A program made the position numbers and the translations under genes. Below are positions 26,307-30,968 of a stretch of DNA of 43,054 nucleotides, in pieces. The notes beneath the pieces were generated by a model. The model was not told the origin of the DNA, searched no databases, and saw only the letters and a list, made by a program, of their open reading frames with translations. Each line of letters begins with the position of its first letter. Positions within the stretch are counted from its first letter, which is position 1. Origin of the DNA: Akkermansiaceae bacterium (GTDB lineage: Bacteria; Verrucomicrobiota; Verrucomicrobiia; Verrucomicrobiales; Akkermansiaceae); assembly GCA_903878115.1 (NCBI GenBank), contig CAIRGO010000100.1, positions 1 through 43,054 of the forward strand, in the 5' to 3' direction.

Positions 26307-27491
26307 TCATCGATCCAGAGCGCCGATTTCATCGTCTAGTTGCCGTAAGTATTGCTGCATTTCTTTCATTCTAGTCCGTAATCGCTCTTTGTCTTCACGG
26401 TTTAATCGCGGTCTGACGGCGCGATTGTTAGATAGTTTTGGTCCTTCTTCTGCGGTTTTGACTTTTGCCAGACTTTCCGCAATGGGCTTGCGTTGCAGCA
26501 TGGAAACAATCGAGGACGCAGGGATCACATAACTACGGATTCGTCCCGCGCGTGCTGCAGCTAGCCCGATGACATTGCCTTGCAAATCGACAACTGGGCC
26601 ACCGCATTCTTCGGGGTTGAGAACCATATCCGTCTGAATCACCGAAGGAAATCCATCGCGCACGCCACTGATTTCTCCGCCCATGCGTTCCATCACTTCT
26701 AAGCGGCGCTGAGGAAATGCAGCCGTAGCTTGTTTAGAGGCCAAAGTCAGAGTGATAGTTTTTTCATTACCATTTCGAGAAAAAACAATCTTTACTGATT
26801 GGCCAGGCTTCATGGTGGAAAGTAATGAGCGAAATTCCATAATGCTGCCGATCAAGGTGCCATTCATATTGAGAATAATATCGCCCAACTGTAGTCCAGC
26901 CATTTCCGCAGGTGATTTTTCTGCAATTTGTTTTACCACGACTCCGGTTCCCTCGGTGTGTGATTCGGCACCAACACCTACAAATGCTTGATCAATTTCA
27001 CGCAGACTGCGTTCTTTTACGCTGACAACTCCCATGCCCAGAGTCGCATCGCCTGGCCCTGCGGCAACGATAAATTTACCCAAGACTGGTTTCTCACCGG
27101 CAGCCCATACGACTGGTCTCAGTTTGGCATCCTTCAATTTGAGCAAGACTAAGTCTTCCTCTTCGTAAACGCCCTCGATCGTAGCCGAATGAGTCTCGTT
27201 TTTTCCTGAGACGCACTGCAAAGGTGCTCCTTTGGCCGCAGCGACTTCGCTCCACTTTGCTAACACTTTGGAACCATCTTCTACCACTGTACCGACGCAG
27301 ATTTGACGTTTGCCGCCCGCCCAAACCCATACAGTTGACTTGCTTACTTTTTGCGCAATCGGTGCTACAATATCAAACACAGTACCTGATTGGCGACGTA
27401 ATACAGCGCGGTCTTCCTCTTTTTGTAATGGCAATTCTTGGGTGATTCCGAGCGCTTGTATTGCAACTAACATTCCAATGATTTTTTTCAT
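26307..27491 (-). CDS. Catalytically dead HtrA-like protein with a PDZ domain inserted in the protease fold
   Basis: From the ATG at 27491 this is a 394-residue protein with a short signal-like N-terminus ('KKIIGMLVAIQALGIT'). The trypsin-like fold is recognisable: 'VGTVVEDGSKVLAKWSEV' aligns with the His strand of HtrA, 'EEEDLVLLKL' with the Asp strand, and 'QTDMVLNPEECGGPVVDLQG' with the Ser loop. The His position is Ser81, Asp113 is kept, and the nucleophile is Cys296. A complete PDZ domain (about residues 165-252, 'GVVVKQIAEKSPAEMAGLQL' then 'GDIILNMNG') sits between the 'GMGVVSVKER' strand and the Ser loop, instead of after the protease. The C-terminus is a charged coiled-coil-like tail. 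It lies 21 bases downstream of an intact HtrA gene, almost certainly in one operon. A regulatory or chaperone role is inferred. Confidence 0.8.
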   Translation of the reverse strand: MKKIIGMLVAIQALGITQELPLQKEEDRAVLRRQSGTVFDIVAPIAQKVSKSTVWVWAGGKRQICVGTVVEDGSKVLAKWSEVAAAKGAPLQCVSGKNETHSATIEGVYEEEDLVLLKLKDAKLRPVVWAAGEKPVLGKFIVAAGPGDATLGMGVVSVKERSLREIDQAFVGVGAESHTEGTGVVVKQIAEKSPAEMAGLQLGDIILNMNGTLIGSIMEFRSLLSTMKPGQSVKIVFSRNGNEKTITLTLASKQATAAFPQRRLEVMERMGGEISGVRDGFPSVIQTDMVLNPEECGGPVVDLQGNVIGLAAARAGRIRSYVIPASSIVSMLQRKPIAESLAKVKTAEEGPKLSNNRAVRPRLNREDKERLRTRMKEMQQYLRQLDDEIGALDR

Positions 27492-27512
27492 ATCTAACAC
27501 AAAAATTTATAT

Positions 27513-28472
27513 TTATTGAGCGTCTCCACGTCTAACTAATTCCACTTCTTTTTCTAACGATTTTCCATCGCGCTGCACGGTGAGTTTTACTTTATCACCT
27601 ACTTGTTTCCGTAATAGTTCATTGCGTAAATCATCCAAGTTGCGGATGCGCTGACCTTCTAATGCTTCGATAATGTCGCCAGGAAAAATTCCTGCCTGAG
27701 TCGCCTTGGAACCTTTGCTCACTTGACCGATCATCAGTCCTTGTCGCGACCAGTCTAATGCAACTCCCAATACTGGCATGTCTTCATTTTGTAAGGGATC
27801 CAGCACTAATTTGCCCCACTGCTCGCCATCAATCATTTTTTGCCAGTCCTCTTTATAGCCTTCTACTCCAGCGTGGTTATTTACTTTCAATGCCTGACCG
27901 ATATTGGAGTTAATGCCGATAATTTTGCCCTCTAAATCAAATAACGGGCCGCCAGAATCGCCACCGATCAGAGTACAATCCGTGGTGAAAAAATTGCCAG
28001 GCCCCTTCGATACAACTCGACCGAAACGCACCGGAGGAGTGCGGGCAGGATCAAAGCCCGCCGCATGGCCCATCGCGATTACCCAGTCGCCGACTTTGAG
28101 GTCTTTTGATTCACCGCGAGCAGCGGCTGGATAGATTCCCTGTGCTTGGATTTTAACCATCGCCAAGTCTTTACCGTAGTTGGCACCCAGCACTTTGCCC
28201 TTCAGCGTTTTGCCATCGGGAAATACGACATCCATCACATCGCTGCCTTGAACGACATGAGCAGCCGTGAGGATCAGACCATCTTCGGAAGTAATGACGC
28301 CCGAGCCAGAACTGGAGGAATCGCTAGCTACTAAAGCTACTGTAAGCGGCAGGCATTTTTGCGCCACAGCTTCTACTTTATTCTCTAATTGCAGCAGCCC
28401 TTGAATGTCGTTCACCGGTTCGGCACAGGCCAAGCGAATAAAACACAAGGTAAGAATCAGTTGCTTCATCAT
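27513..28472 (-). CDS. HtrA/Deg-type periplasmic serine protease with one PDZ domain
   Basis: This 319-residue protein has a signal peptide ('KQLILTLCFIRLACAEP', about residues 3-19). It carries an intact chymotrypsin-type triad: His72 in 'ILTAAHVV', Asp102 in 'YGKDLAMVKI' and Ser173 in 'LIGGDSGGPLFD'. One PDZ domain follows (about 230-315; 'GLMIGQVSKGSKATQAGIFP', 'GDIIEALEGQRIRNLDDLRN'). It should degrade or hold misfolded periplasmic proteins. It is smaller than DegP, having a single PDZ domain and no long LA loop. It is the first gene of a two-gene unit with the pseudo-HtrA. A -35/-10 pair places the transcript start at the first of two tandem ATGs, so the first ATG is chosen. It is divergent from PBP1A across 150 bases holding an 18-bp palindrome. 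Confidence 0.92.
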   Translation of the reverse strand: MMKQLILTLCFIRLACAEPVNDIQGLLQLENKVEAVAQKCLPLTVALVASDSSSSGSGVITSEDGLILTAAHVVQGSDVMDVVFPDGKTLKGKVLGANYGKDLAMVKIQAQGIYPAAARGESKDLKVGDWVIAMGHAAGFDPARTPPVRFGRVVSKGPGNFFTTDCTLIGGDSGGPLFDLEGKIIGINSNIGQALKVNNHAGVEGYKEDWQKMIDGEQWGKLVLDPLQNEDMPVLGVALDWSRQGLMIGQVSKGSKATQAGIFPGDIIEALEGQRIRNLDDLRNELLRKQVGDKVKLTVQRDGKSLEKEVELVRRGDAQ

Positions 28473-28478
28473 ATCGGT

Positions 28479-28506
28479 ATTCTACACAGCGATGCACTGT
28501 CGTCAA
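28479..28506 (-). promoter_or_regulatory. Predicted leaderless promoter of the htrA pair
   Basis: On the minus strand TTGACG (28506-28501), a 16-base spacer and TAGAAT (28484-28479) closely match -35 and -10 boxes. Counting seven bases on from the last -10 base gives 28472, exactly the A of the first ATG. The mRNA would then have no leader. No Shine-Dalgarno sequence is present. Of the leaderless candidates in this window this has the best boxes. Confidence 0.5.
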
Positions 28507-28513
28507 TTTCTCT

Positions 28514-28531
28514 ATTTTTTCCGGAAAAAAT
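28514..28531. promoter_or_regulatory. 18-bp perfect palindrome between htrA and PBP1A
   Basis: ATTTTTTCCGGAAAAAAT is its own reverse complement over 18 bases. It lies 8 bases upstream of the htrA -35 box and about 90 bases before the PBP1A start. The CRE-like palindrome TGACGTCA (28542-28549) and TTCATGAA (28552-28559) lie close by. The position between divergent genes suits an operator for an envelope-stress regulator, which is inference. As RNA it could fold, but no gene ends here for it to terminate. Confidence 0.5.
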
Positions 28532-28622
28532 CAGCTGCCTGTGACGTCAACTTCATGAATTTTTCACAAAATGAATCTCGATCTATTGCATCATTCACAC
28601 TAGTCTCTGCGTATCCACTCCC

Positions 28623-30968
28623 ATGGCAGTCTCAAAAAAATCTTCTGCACCACGCAGCAAACGCAAAAAAGAACCAGAGCAGCGACCCACCTCGCTGGTA
28701 TCACTGGTATTTTTTTGGCCATTTTACCTTTATCATTATGTGATTCGTAACCTCCCGCTTTTGGCGCGGATCCCATTGCGATTGATCGGAGACCCCGCGA
28801 TCGTGGGCCTTTACTTATTGGTAATGCTCTCGATTGTTTATGGAATTCGCTCAAAGCAATACCGATTGGATAAAATTCATGAAATGCCAGAGCGCACTTT
28901 GATTATAGACAAACGTGGTGTTGAACTAGCTCGTATTCACGGTGAAATACGCGATATTATTACTCTTGATCAAGTCTCTCCCAGTTTCCGTAAAGCGATT
29001 CTCGCGCGCGAAGATGAAAGATTTTATCAACACGGTGCCTTTGATCCGATCGGAATTGTGCGCGCGTTTATCAAAAACTTGCAAGGAAAGCGCGAAGGCG
29101 CATCTACCATCACTCAGCAATTAGCTGCTGATGTGTTTAAACTTAAAGAATACGGCAAGAAAAAATCATTGCTGCAACAAATCGATCGCAAGTTTTTGGA
29201 AATTGCGATCGCCTATCGTATCGAAGGGTATTTGGGCTCTAAAGATAAAGTGTTAGAAGCGTATTTGAACTCGATCAATTGGGGTCGTTCTATCCGCGGC
29301 ATTCAAGAAGCATCACGCATCTATTTTGAAAAAAATGCCAGTGAAATCAATTTATCAGAATCAGCAATGCTTGCGGGAATCGTCCGTGGACCGGATGCCT
29401 TTAATCCATTTAATAATATGGATGCCGCCATTCGCGAGAGGAATTCCACCTTGGAACGCATGGTTGTCGCGAAAGTCATCACTGCCGACGAGGCCGCCGC
29501 AGCGAAGAAAGAACCGCTCGATATTCGTCCTGCTAACCGTCGTAAGATCCGCGAATCATATGCTCTCGATGCGATTCGGCGCGATTTAGAAGTGATTTTG
29601 GAAAAAGAAAATATCGAACTAGGAGGACTGATCATTACGACTACGATCGACAACTTAATCCAACAAAAAGCCGAAGAAGCCGTAGAAGCCTCGCTATCTC
29701 GCATTGAAAAAACACCTGGATATCCGCATCAAACACGCGCCAAATGGCAGGCGATACCTGAAGGGAAAAAAACACCCACGGCCTATCTTCAAGGCGCTGC
29801 TGTGGTGATTGAAAATCATACGGGCGAAGTGCTAGCCATCGTTGGTGGACGCTCGGCCGATGAGTCAAAATTCAATCGAGCGATTCAAGCACATCGTCAA
29901 ATCGGTTCTGTATTTAAGCCATTTGTTTATCTATCCGCATTCGATAAAGGGATGCGCCCTGATACCATGATCTCCGATGGTTACATTGACTCTGGAGAAA
30001 TCAAAGGTGCACCAGCAAGCTGGCATCCGAAGAATTCGGATGGCAAGTATGGCGGTAATTACCCTGTATCCTATGGCCTGATTCGCTCCAGAAATACGAT
30101 GTCAGTTAGGGTCGGTAATTATGCCGGATTTAGTAACGTGAGAGAAGTATCTAGACAGGCTGGATTCCAGTTGGAGTTGCCTGACACTCCCTCCTCATAC
30201 CTAGGATCGTGGGAGGCGACGCCTTATGAGGTAGCATCTGCCTATTCTATGTTGCCGAACGGTGGCGCGCGATACCGACCATTTTTGATTTCACAAATCA
30301 AAGATCGCACAGGAACCATCCTTTATTCGACACCGCCGCTTCCCTACCAAGCTGCGTCATCAGGATCAGCGTGGTCTGTTTCAAAAATCCTCCAAGAAGT
30401 AACCACCACAGGCACTGCGGCCGCAGTCAAGATGTTAGGATTTGATAAACCTTGCGCCGGCAAAACTGGCACGACCAATAATTTCAAAGACGCTTGGTTT
30501 GCTGGTTATACAACATCACTATCATGCGCTGTTTGGTGCGGTATGGATGACTCGCAGCGAACCGTGCAGGGTGGCTATGGCGCCACTCTCTCGCTACCGA
30601 TTTGGGTGGATATCATGAAAACTGCTGAACGTCTCGGCTACAAAGCAAATCAATTTACGCAAATGACGCCAGACACTGGATTGGTTAGTTGCACATTATG
30701 TAAGCAATCTGGCAAACGCGCTACCACCGGATGTGCGGCAGCTGGCACCTCCTATGTCGACCAAGTCCCGGTAGATATCGCTCCCGCTAAAAACGACCTT
30801 TGCCCGATTCATCCGATCAAAGCTGTGTCGAACGACGAAGATACGCCACCGCGTCCATCGGATCGACCATTGCGTGCGCAGCCTGTTGATGAGCCATCGC
30901 GCACGCCACTACGTGCCCAGCCACTAGAAGAACCATCTCAACCATTAAGAGCCCAGCCTGTGGAATAG
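28623..30968 (+). CDS. mrcA: Penicillin-binding protein 1A (bifunctional glycosyltransferase/transpeptidase)
   Basis: This 781-residue class A PBP polymerises and cross-links peptidoglycan on the outer face of the inner membrane. A basic N-tail and a membrane segment (about 58-76, 'PAIVGLYLLVMLSIVYGI') precede a GT51 domain with the catalytic Glu in 'AREDERFYQHGAFD' and 'GASTITQQLAADVF'. The transpeptidase domain has the nucleophile Ser429 in 'GSVFKPF', 'SRN' in 'LIRSRNTMSV', and 'KTGTTN' beginning at Lys614. Near the C-terminus a four-Cys segment ('CTLCKQSGKRATTGC', then 'LCPIHP') may form disulfides. The protein ends in three imperfect copies of 'PLRAQPxxEPS'. The start fits the basic N-tail; no Shine-Dalgarno sequence is seen. 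It is divergent from the htrA operon. Confidence 0.95.
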   Translation: MAVSKKSSAPRSKRKKEPEQRPTSLVSLVFFWPFYLYHYVIRNLPLLARIPLRLIGDPAIVGLYLLVMLSIVYGIRSKQYRLDKIHEMPERTLIIDKRGVELARIHGEIRDIITLDQVSPSFRKAILAREDERFYQHGAFDPIGIVRAFIKNLQGKREGASTITQQLAADVFKLKEYGKKKSLLQQIDRKFLEIAIAYRIEGYLGSKDKVLEAYLNSINWGRSIRGIQEASRIYFEKNASEINLSESAMLAGIVRGPDAFNPFNNMDAAIRERNSTLERMVVAKVITADEAAAAKKEPLDIRPANRRKIRESYALDAIRRDLEVILEKENIELGGLIITTTIDNLIQQKAEEAVEASLSRIEKTPGYPHQTRAKWQAIPEGKKTPTAYLQGAAVVIENHTGEVLAIVGGRSADESKFNRAIQAHRQIGSVFKPFVYLSAFDKGMRPDTMISDGYIDSGEIKGAPASWHPKNSDGKYGGNYPVSYGLIRSRNTMSVRVGNYAGFSNVREVSRQAGFQLELPDTPSSYLGSWEATPYEVASAYSMLPNGGARYRPFLISQIKDRTGTILYSTPPLPYQAASSGSAWSVSKILQEVTTTGTAAAVKMLGFDKPCAGKTGTTNNFKDAWFAGYTTSLSCAVWCGMDDSQRTVQGGYGATLSLPIWVDIMKTAERLGYKANQFTQMTPDTGLVSCTLCKQSGKRATTGCAAAGTSYVDQVPVDIAPAKNDLCPIHPIKAVSNDEDTPPRPSDRPLRAQPVDEPSRTPLRAQPLEEPSQPLRAQPVE
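30866..30965 (+). repeat. Short tandem repeat encoding the PBP1A C-terminal tail
   Basis: The last codons of the PBP1A gene encode three imperfect copies of the peptide PLRAQP[VL][DE]EPS, separated by two or three residues, the last copy being cut short by the stop. The DNA copies (for example 'ttgcgtgcgcagcctgttga', 'ctacgtgcccagccactaga', 'ttaagagcccagcctgtgga') have drifted at many third positions. That points to an old duplication maintained at the protein level rather than recent slippage. The tail is Pro/Arg-rich and probably flexible in the periplasm. Confidence 0.7.

Follow-up and report, generated by a model that had tools for sequence, protein, structure and literature searches.

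In an Akkermansiaceae genome of the phylum Verrucomicrobiota, an HtrA protease with an intact catalytic triad is encoded directly upstream of a catalytically dead HtrA paralogue whose PDZ domain is inserted in loop L3 of the trypsin-like fold. This pairing architecture is ancient and order-wide. The best explanation, to which we assign a probability of roughly 55%, is a cell-envelope HtrA made of two obligate components, a catalytic subunit and the pseudoprotease, which would act as sensor and turn the former on within a mixed oligomer.

The gene pair and the fold of the pseudoprotease

The window analysed here is a stretch of 43,054 nucleotides (contig CAIRGO010000100.1), in which both genes and all of their features lie on the minus strand. 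The upstream gene (27513..28472) encodes the active HtrA partner, a protein of 319 aa with a putative signal peptide, a trypsin-like domain (Trypsin_2 in Pfam) and, after it, a C-terminal PDZ (PDZ_2, residues 233-312, 27537..27776). Its catalytic residues are H72 (28257..28259), D102 (28167..28169) and S173 (27954..27956), the last of these within the motif IGGDSGGP. The open reading frame of the pseudo-HtrA (26307..27491) begins 21 bases after the stop codon of the HtrA and gives 394 aa from its ATG; a start at the GTG located 9 bases further upstream would lengthen it to 397 aa. At the aligned triad positions the pseudo-HtrA carries S81 (27249..27251), D113 (27153..27155) and C296 (26604..26606). 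A sequence-only reading of this locus had described an intact HtrA followed 21 bases on by a second gene that has Ser in place of the His and Cys in place of the nucleophile, and the open reading frames and alignments agree with it on both points. The pseudo-HtrA also has a putative signal peptide and, as judged from the N-terminal signal-like helices only, the pair would be located in the cell envelope.

In Pfam searches the pseudo-HtrA has PDZ_2 at residues 172-250 (26742..26978), with the second half of Trypsin_2 at residues 268-310, after the PDZ. An AlphaFold2 model built with 62 homologues (pLDDT 90.6, pTM 0.80) predicts that strands in residues 53-161, before the PDZ, and 284-324, after it, form one HtrA-type protease domain. 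Its first part covers residues 41-165 (26997..27371), as delimited by DSSP of the model and by HMMER alignment to DegP-like, DegQ and HtrA, and the remainder covers residues 262-335 (26487..26708). Structure alignment of the model to solved HtrAs matched 185 residues within 33-341 at an rmsd of 2.9 and a Z of 22.7 and skipped the PDZ; because this alignment spans both sides of the PDZ, the trypsin fold of the pseudo-HtrA is completed after it. The earlier placement of the PDZ between a strand and the Ser loop, inside the protease domain, is therefore upheld by both the Pfam order and the model, and the structure prediction that had been proposed for the 394-residue protein gave a completed trypsin fold and not two separate ordinary domains. 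The description of the paralogue as rearranged stands in so far as the PDZ is away from the C-terminus, but the change is a single insertion at a defined loop, L3, with no general rearrangement. In sum, the protein has the HtrA-type trypsin fold and has neither the His-Asp-Ser triad nor a C-terminal PDZ. The model ends in a predicted C-terminal helix (residues 365-393, 26313..26399), a coiled-coil-like tail found in many A-type members of the family. No specific family for the pseudo-HtrA was found in Pfam, NCBIfam or PHROGs.

An order-wide partnership

Extraction of open reading frames from all loci yielded 103 distinct pseudoproteases from 65 genomes, and the family is present in 48 of 57 relatives. 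The position of the catalytic His is occupied by Ser in 95 of the 103 sequences and never by His, whereas the catalytic Asp is retained in 101. At the nucleophile position stands Cys, Ala, Met, Val, Ile, Thr or Leu; just two sequences have Ser there, and both are without the His. A search for homologues with an intact triad returned none among the 103. The loss of catalytic residues is what a decaying duplicate would also display, yet the chance of decay or of an annotation artefact is close to nil: a broken gene, chance and artefact are ruled out by the confident fold, by invariant residues and by order-wide conservation that extends to single-contig genomes. A conserved motif of its own marks the dead active site, K-x-S-[ED] (K79-x-S81 in the window, 27249-27257), with K79 kept in 98/103 and S81 in 95/103; it may have a structural role, bind a ligand or support an unsuspected activity.

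A partner HtrA was found for 102 of the 103 pseudoproteases, and every partner has H-D-S at the triad positions. The partner lies directly upstream on the same strand in 85 cases, with a median gap of -4 bases and 94% of gaps within -80 to +50, and in 17 further cases pseudoprotease and partner form one open reading frame. The sole unlinked pseudoprotease (L077, genome G054) has no neighbour, and the active partner is on another contig of the same genome. The fused or separate state has changed at least four times, and seven times on the best tree of the pseudoprotease part. In 16 of the fusions the active part comes first, whereas one (L128, 2137-4008, genome G282) has the pseudoprotease first, and this reverse order cannot have come from the mere loss of a stop codon in the common operon.

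Profile searches of 387 sampled genomes of the phylum gave full-length pseudoprotease matches in 37. The weaker matches that were left out are PDZ-only or half-domain matches of ordinary HtrAs, the best of them at about 1e-21 compared with about 1e-70 for the weakest true genome. With a threshold of 1e-62 set beforehand, the active-partner profile matched the identical 37 genomes and no others. Copy numbers agree genome by genome, from three and three in G031 and G319 to one and one in family f4, and loss of the pseudoprotease independently of the active partner was not seen in any of the 387 genomes. The distribution is almost wholly confined to the order of the window; beyond it, the family occurs in two genomes that belong to a distant family within the phylum. 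A search of plasmids with the family returned PDZ-level matches only, and a viral scan with the profile turned up no stretch of sufficient conservation. The proposed search for the pair across Verrucomicrobia thus shows an architecture that recurs across an order. Similar proteins, recognizable by 'LQHDTVL..E.CGGPLVDLDG', also occur in Planctomycetota, which offers a lead.

The source genome carries a second, diverged active/pseudo pair (L002 / L153, contig C318) in the same order and with 27% identity. Both pairs are present in the single-contig genome G167 of genus g3, which we take to be A. muciniphila ATCC BAA-835 and Akkermansia, respectively. Ten genomes of this genus (G011, G106, G123, G159, G191, G237, G244, G247, G328 and G343) have lost both genes of both pairs. 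The second pair adjoins, as judged by eye, a rhomboid-like open reading frame and one resembling the C-terminus of a Clp ATPase. Trees of the pseudoproteases and of the active partners each place the A-type clade on one side of a branch, that of the active partners with a support of 99, and the distances in the two families correlate with an r of 0.87. This correlation alone could reflect species descent; taken together with the fusions and the joint losses, it indicates a shared function of the two proteins.

Conserved adjacency, the 17 fusions, matched copy numbers and shared presence and absence all strongly support the earlier view that the second protein lacks catalysis and is the partner of the active HtrA beside it. 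A biochemical role of its own, such as ligand or metal binding, with mere co-expression alongside the protease, has a precedent in MamO, which lost catalysis and binds metal (PMC4794232), and would account for the strongly conserved K-x-S-[E/D] motif and the retained Asp. The fusions, one of them reversed, and the perfect co-occurrence argue for joint function, and we regard such a separate role as very improbable. While the partnership is well supported, it is by inference that we add direct contact and a direction of control. In the MamE/MamO system, MamO needed its TauE domain for activation and the two proteins were not found to touch directly (PMC4794232), so that pairing need not mean contact. 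Even so, we hold it highly probable that the pseudoprotease and its active partner are direct physical partners.

An indication of their arrangement comes from a natural fusion of 648 residues (L029), which is predicted to form a single well-defined body with a pLDDT of 91.7 and a pTM of 0.85. Over four domains, this pTM suggests a fixed mutual arrangement, though as a global value only.

Upstream of the pair, and divergent from it, lies the gene of a bifunctional penicillin-binding protein (28623..30968, plus strand; PF00912 and PF00905). The 150 bases between them (28473..28622) are a candidate divergent promoter region. This linkage is kept in 15 genomes, drawn from families f1 and f4 and with genus g3 represented (loci L155, L158, L159, L160, L163, L164, L166 and L167 are among them), and is absent in the sister species of the window; it weakly suggests a link of the HtrA pair to peptidoglycan synthesis.

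Loops L3 and LD and a proposed division of labour

The L3 loop of ordinary HtrAs follows the strand G-I-V-S-x-x-x-R and finishes at Q-T-D, ahead of the Ser loop. In their trimers, L3 of one subunit passes the signal of a PDZ-bound peptide on to the LD activation loop of the neighbouring subunit. R302 of HtrA1 is such an L3 arginine and is required to activate the neighbouring subunit (PMC5666011). In HMMER alignments to DegP-like, DegQ and HtrA, the pseudoproteases track canonical HtrA up to this arginine and rejoin it at 'GFPxVxQxD', with the PDZ exactly between. The arginine (R161 in the window, 27009..27011) is present in 103 of 103 pseudoproteases, while the active partners have Arg at the same offset in 0 of 101.

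The lengths of the two loops differ between the families. From the strand Gly to the Asp of the TD motif, the span is 20-22 residues in canonical HtrAs (C57 of the same genome, DegP and DegP-like), 121-151 in the pseudoproteases and, in the active partners, 12-14. For loop LD, measured between the GN/GH turn and the strand Gly, canonical HtrAs have 12 residues and pseudoproteases mostly 9 or 12, whereas the active partners have exactly 16 in 101/101. In the window, the active partner has its LD loop, lengthened and strictly conserved, at residues 135-151 (28020..28070) and its shortened L3 region at residues 152-164 (27981..28019). HMMER places R152 of the active partner on the L3 region of DegP, which would make its L3 less unusual, while in the reading adopted here the strand Gly is G151 of the active partner, as placed by profile-profile alignment of the two families and by the strand limits of the fusion model (167-175, followed by a turn of four residues). 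The PDZ insertion in the pseudoprotease is more certain than the change in L3 length of its active partner. The simplest reading of the two sets of loops is a division of labour, in which the pseudoprotease would keep and enlarge the sensor loop L3 and the active partner would keep and enlarge the receiver loop LD.

In the active partners, the Ser loop ('TLIGGDSGGP', window 27954-27980) has the IGGDSGGP of chymotrypsin-type proteases where HtrA has NPGNSGGP, and a nearly invariant Cys precedes it.

The use of PDZ domains is also unequal. The active partner has no detectable PDZ in 10 of 102 cases, which represent at least four changes on the tree and include the B-type pair in every g3 genome that was examined, whereas a PDZ is present in every pseudoprotease (103/103) at 55 bits or more. 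The active partner has lost its PDZ in some members and the pseudoprotease in none, from which it appears that the PDZ inside the pseudoprotease matters most. In the B-type loci L134, L136, L137, L138 and L139 of g3, the active partner is a protease domain alone and the pseudoprotease keeps its PDZ, which makes these loci natural minimal pairs.

In the mechanism that we propose, the upstream protein would be the catalytic subunit of a two-component HtrA, and the downstream pseudoprotease would assemble with it, bringing a sensor PDZ built into L3 beside the conserved L3 arginine. The pseudoprotease would thereby provide L3 and PDZ in trans to its catalytic neighbour, and a peptide or misfolded protein bound to its PDZ would order the LD loop and the active site of that neighbour. 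Trans-activation through L3 and LD is a step to which we give even odds. We are evenly divided, too, on the evolutionary counterpart of this mechanism, according to which sensing and cutting were split between the paralogues by reciprocal loss, with the L3 sensor abandoned by the catalytic subunit and catalysis by the pseudoprotease as it took the PDZ into L3, only the mixed oligomer would be a regulated protease, and the split would predate the separation of Akkermansiaceae from related families. Sequences and models show the dead triad, the PDZ within L3, the invariant arginine, the reciprocal loop changes, the obligate pairing and the fusions, while the hetero-oligomer, activation rather than inhibition, and the nature of the ligand are inferred elements of this scheme. 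Against it stands the fact that nine in ten active partners retain a PDZ themselves and might need no help in sensing peptides.

The pseudoprotease could alternatively serve as a scaffold or substrate-delivery adaptor, its PDZ binding substrates and its dead domain driving assembly, with no switching of the active site. Such a role would be in keeping with the part that the inactive protease domain of plant Deg7 takes in trimerization (PMC3473262), with the retention of the pseudoprotease PDZ where that of the active partner can be lost, and with the C-terminal helix of A-type members. It leaves unexplained, however, the precise placement of the PDZ in L3, the invariance of the L3 arginine and the altered lengths of LD and L3 in the partner, and we consider it unlikely. 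We are more doubtful still of an inhibitor or storage partner, which would keep the active HtrA capped or poisoned for as long as its own PDZ has no peptide bound. The same pairing data fit this possibility, co-expression from one operon is typical of enzyme-inhibitor pairs, and the resting state of an HtrA can be held by inactive subunits; but the activation arginine of L3 is kept in all 103 pseudoproteases and is absent at that position in the active partner, which itself seems to have lost the parts that the pseudoprotease supplies, and this points to dependence more than to inhibition. An enzyme permanently fused to its inhibitor in several lineages would also be less natural, though possible. 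We accordingly favour a sensor and activator over a scaffold or delivery adaptor, these over an inhibitor, and all of them over an unrelated function. The sequence-only reading had offered a regulator, adaptor or decoy forming mixed oligomers; regulator or adaptor remains the best reading, a decoy is not favoured, and the mixed oligomer is putative. The location of the PDZ within L3, the invariant arginine, the reciprocal loop change of the active partner and the second pair in this genome are additions to that reading.

Comparison with known HtrA systems

Compared with DegP, DegQ, DegS and HtrA1-2 (S1C, TIGR02037), the pair shares the trypsin-like fold, the PDZ and the L3 arginine, and the active partner has the triad and the C-terminal PDZ. 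In its strand and in the start of L3, the canonical HtrA of this genome matches the pseudo-HtrA (GIISAKERS and GVVSVKERS, respectively). The pseudo-HtrA differs from canonical HtrA in having no triad and in carrying its PDZ inside L3 rather than at the C-terminus, whereas the active partner differs in its short L3, its long LD and IGGDSGGP replacing NPGNSGGP. Against the TIGR02037 cut-off of 416.2 bits, the pseudo-HtrA scores 96 and the active partner 163.9, so far below the cut-off that the active partner is a divergent HtrA and not a typical Do protease.

A close functional parallel is found in magnetotactic bacteria, where MamO activates MamE-dependent proteolysis without catalysis of its own, which shows that an active HtrA can require an inactive relative for its proteolysis, and where such pairs arose three times (PMC4794232). 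In both systems, an active HtrA operates together with a pseudoprotease from its own superfamily, and the triad of the latter is degenerate. MamO differs in its metal binding, in the TauE transporter domain that activation needs, in having no PDZ in L3 and in that no contact with MamE was found. Pfam searches found no TauE domain in the pseudo-HtrA, which scores 22.9 against 800 bits with the MamO model NF040961, and the pair of the window belongs to a separate, order-wide lineage with natural fusions. Proteins of the Deg7/Nma111 type join active and dead HtrA domains in one chain, as do the 17 fusions, while the window pair is encoded by two genes; Deg7 has four PDZs outside its protease domains, is not split into two genes and has no PDZ inside L3. 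A statement on heteromers was not found in the Deg5/Deg8 structure paper.

Insertion of a PDZ in a protease domain is known from unrelated folds. RseP has a PDZ inserted in its protease domain as a regulatory sensor. The S41 proteases Prc, CtpA and CtpB likewise contain an inserted regulatory sensor PDZ (PMC6686036). In these and in RseP, however, the insertion evolved separately and the catalytic residues are intact. The pseudo-HtrA did not behave as an S41 protein in our searches, with Trypsin_2 as its Pfam domain and a score of 38 against a cut-off of 218.6 with the NCBIfam prc model. The literature searched, mostly outside subscription journals, held no description of a PDZ insertion in L3 of an HtrA fold or of this pair, including work on HtrAs of Akkermansia and Verrucomicrobia. 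The earlier remark that the exact pair had not been described thus holds for that literature, but the pairing of active and inactive HtrAs as such is known from MamE/MamO and plant Deg7; the insertion of the PDZ in L3 has no precedent in the papers searched.

In HtrA allostery, the contributions of PDZ, L3 and LD of identical neighbouring subunits are hard to separate by mutation. If sensor and active site do lie on different chains, they could be changed independently, and the direction of signalling would become directly testable. If G167 is indeed A. muciniphila, the pair may rank among the principal envelope proteases of a much-studied inhabitant of the gut. To the few known pairs of active and pseudo HtrAs, it adds a case that is both ancient and order-wide.
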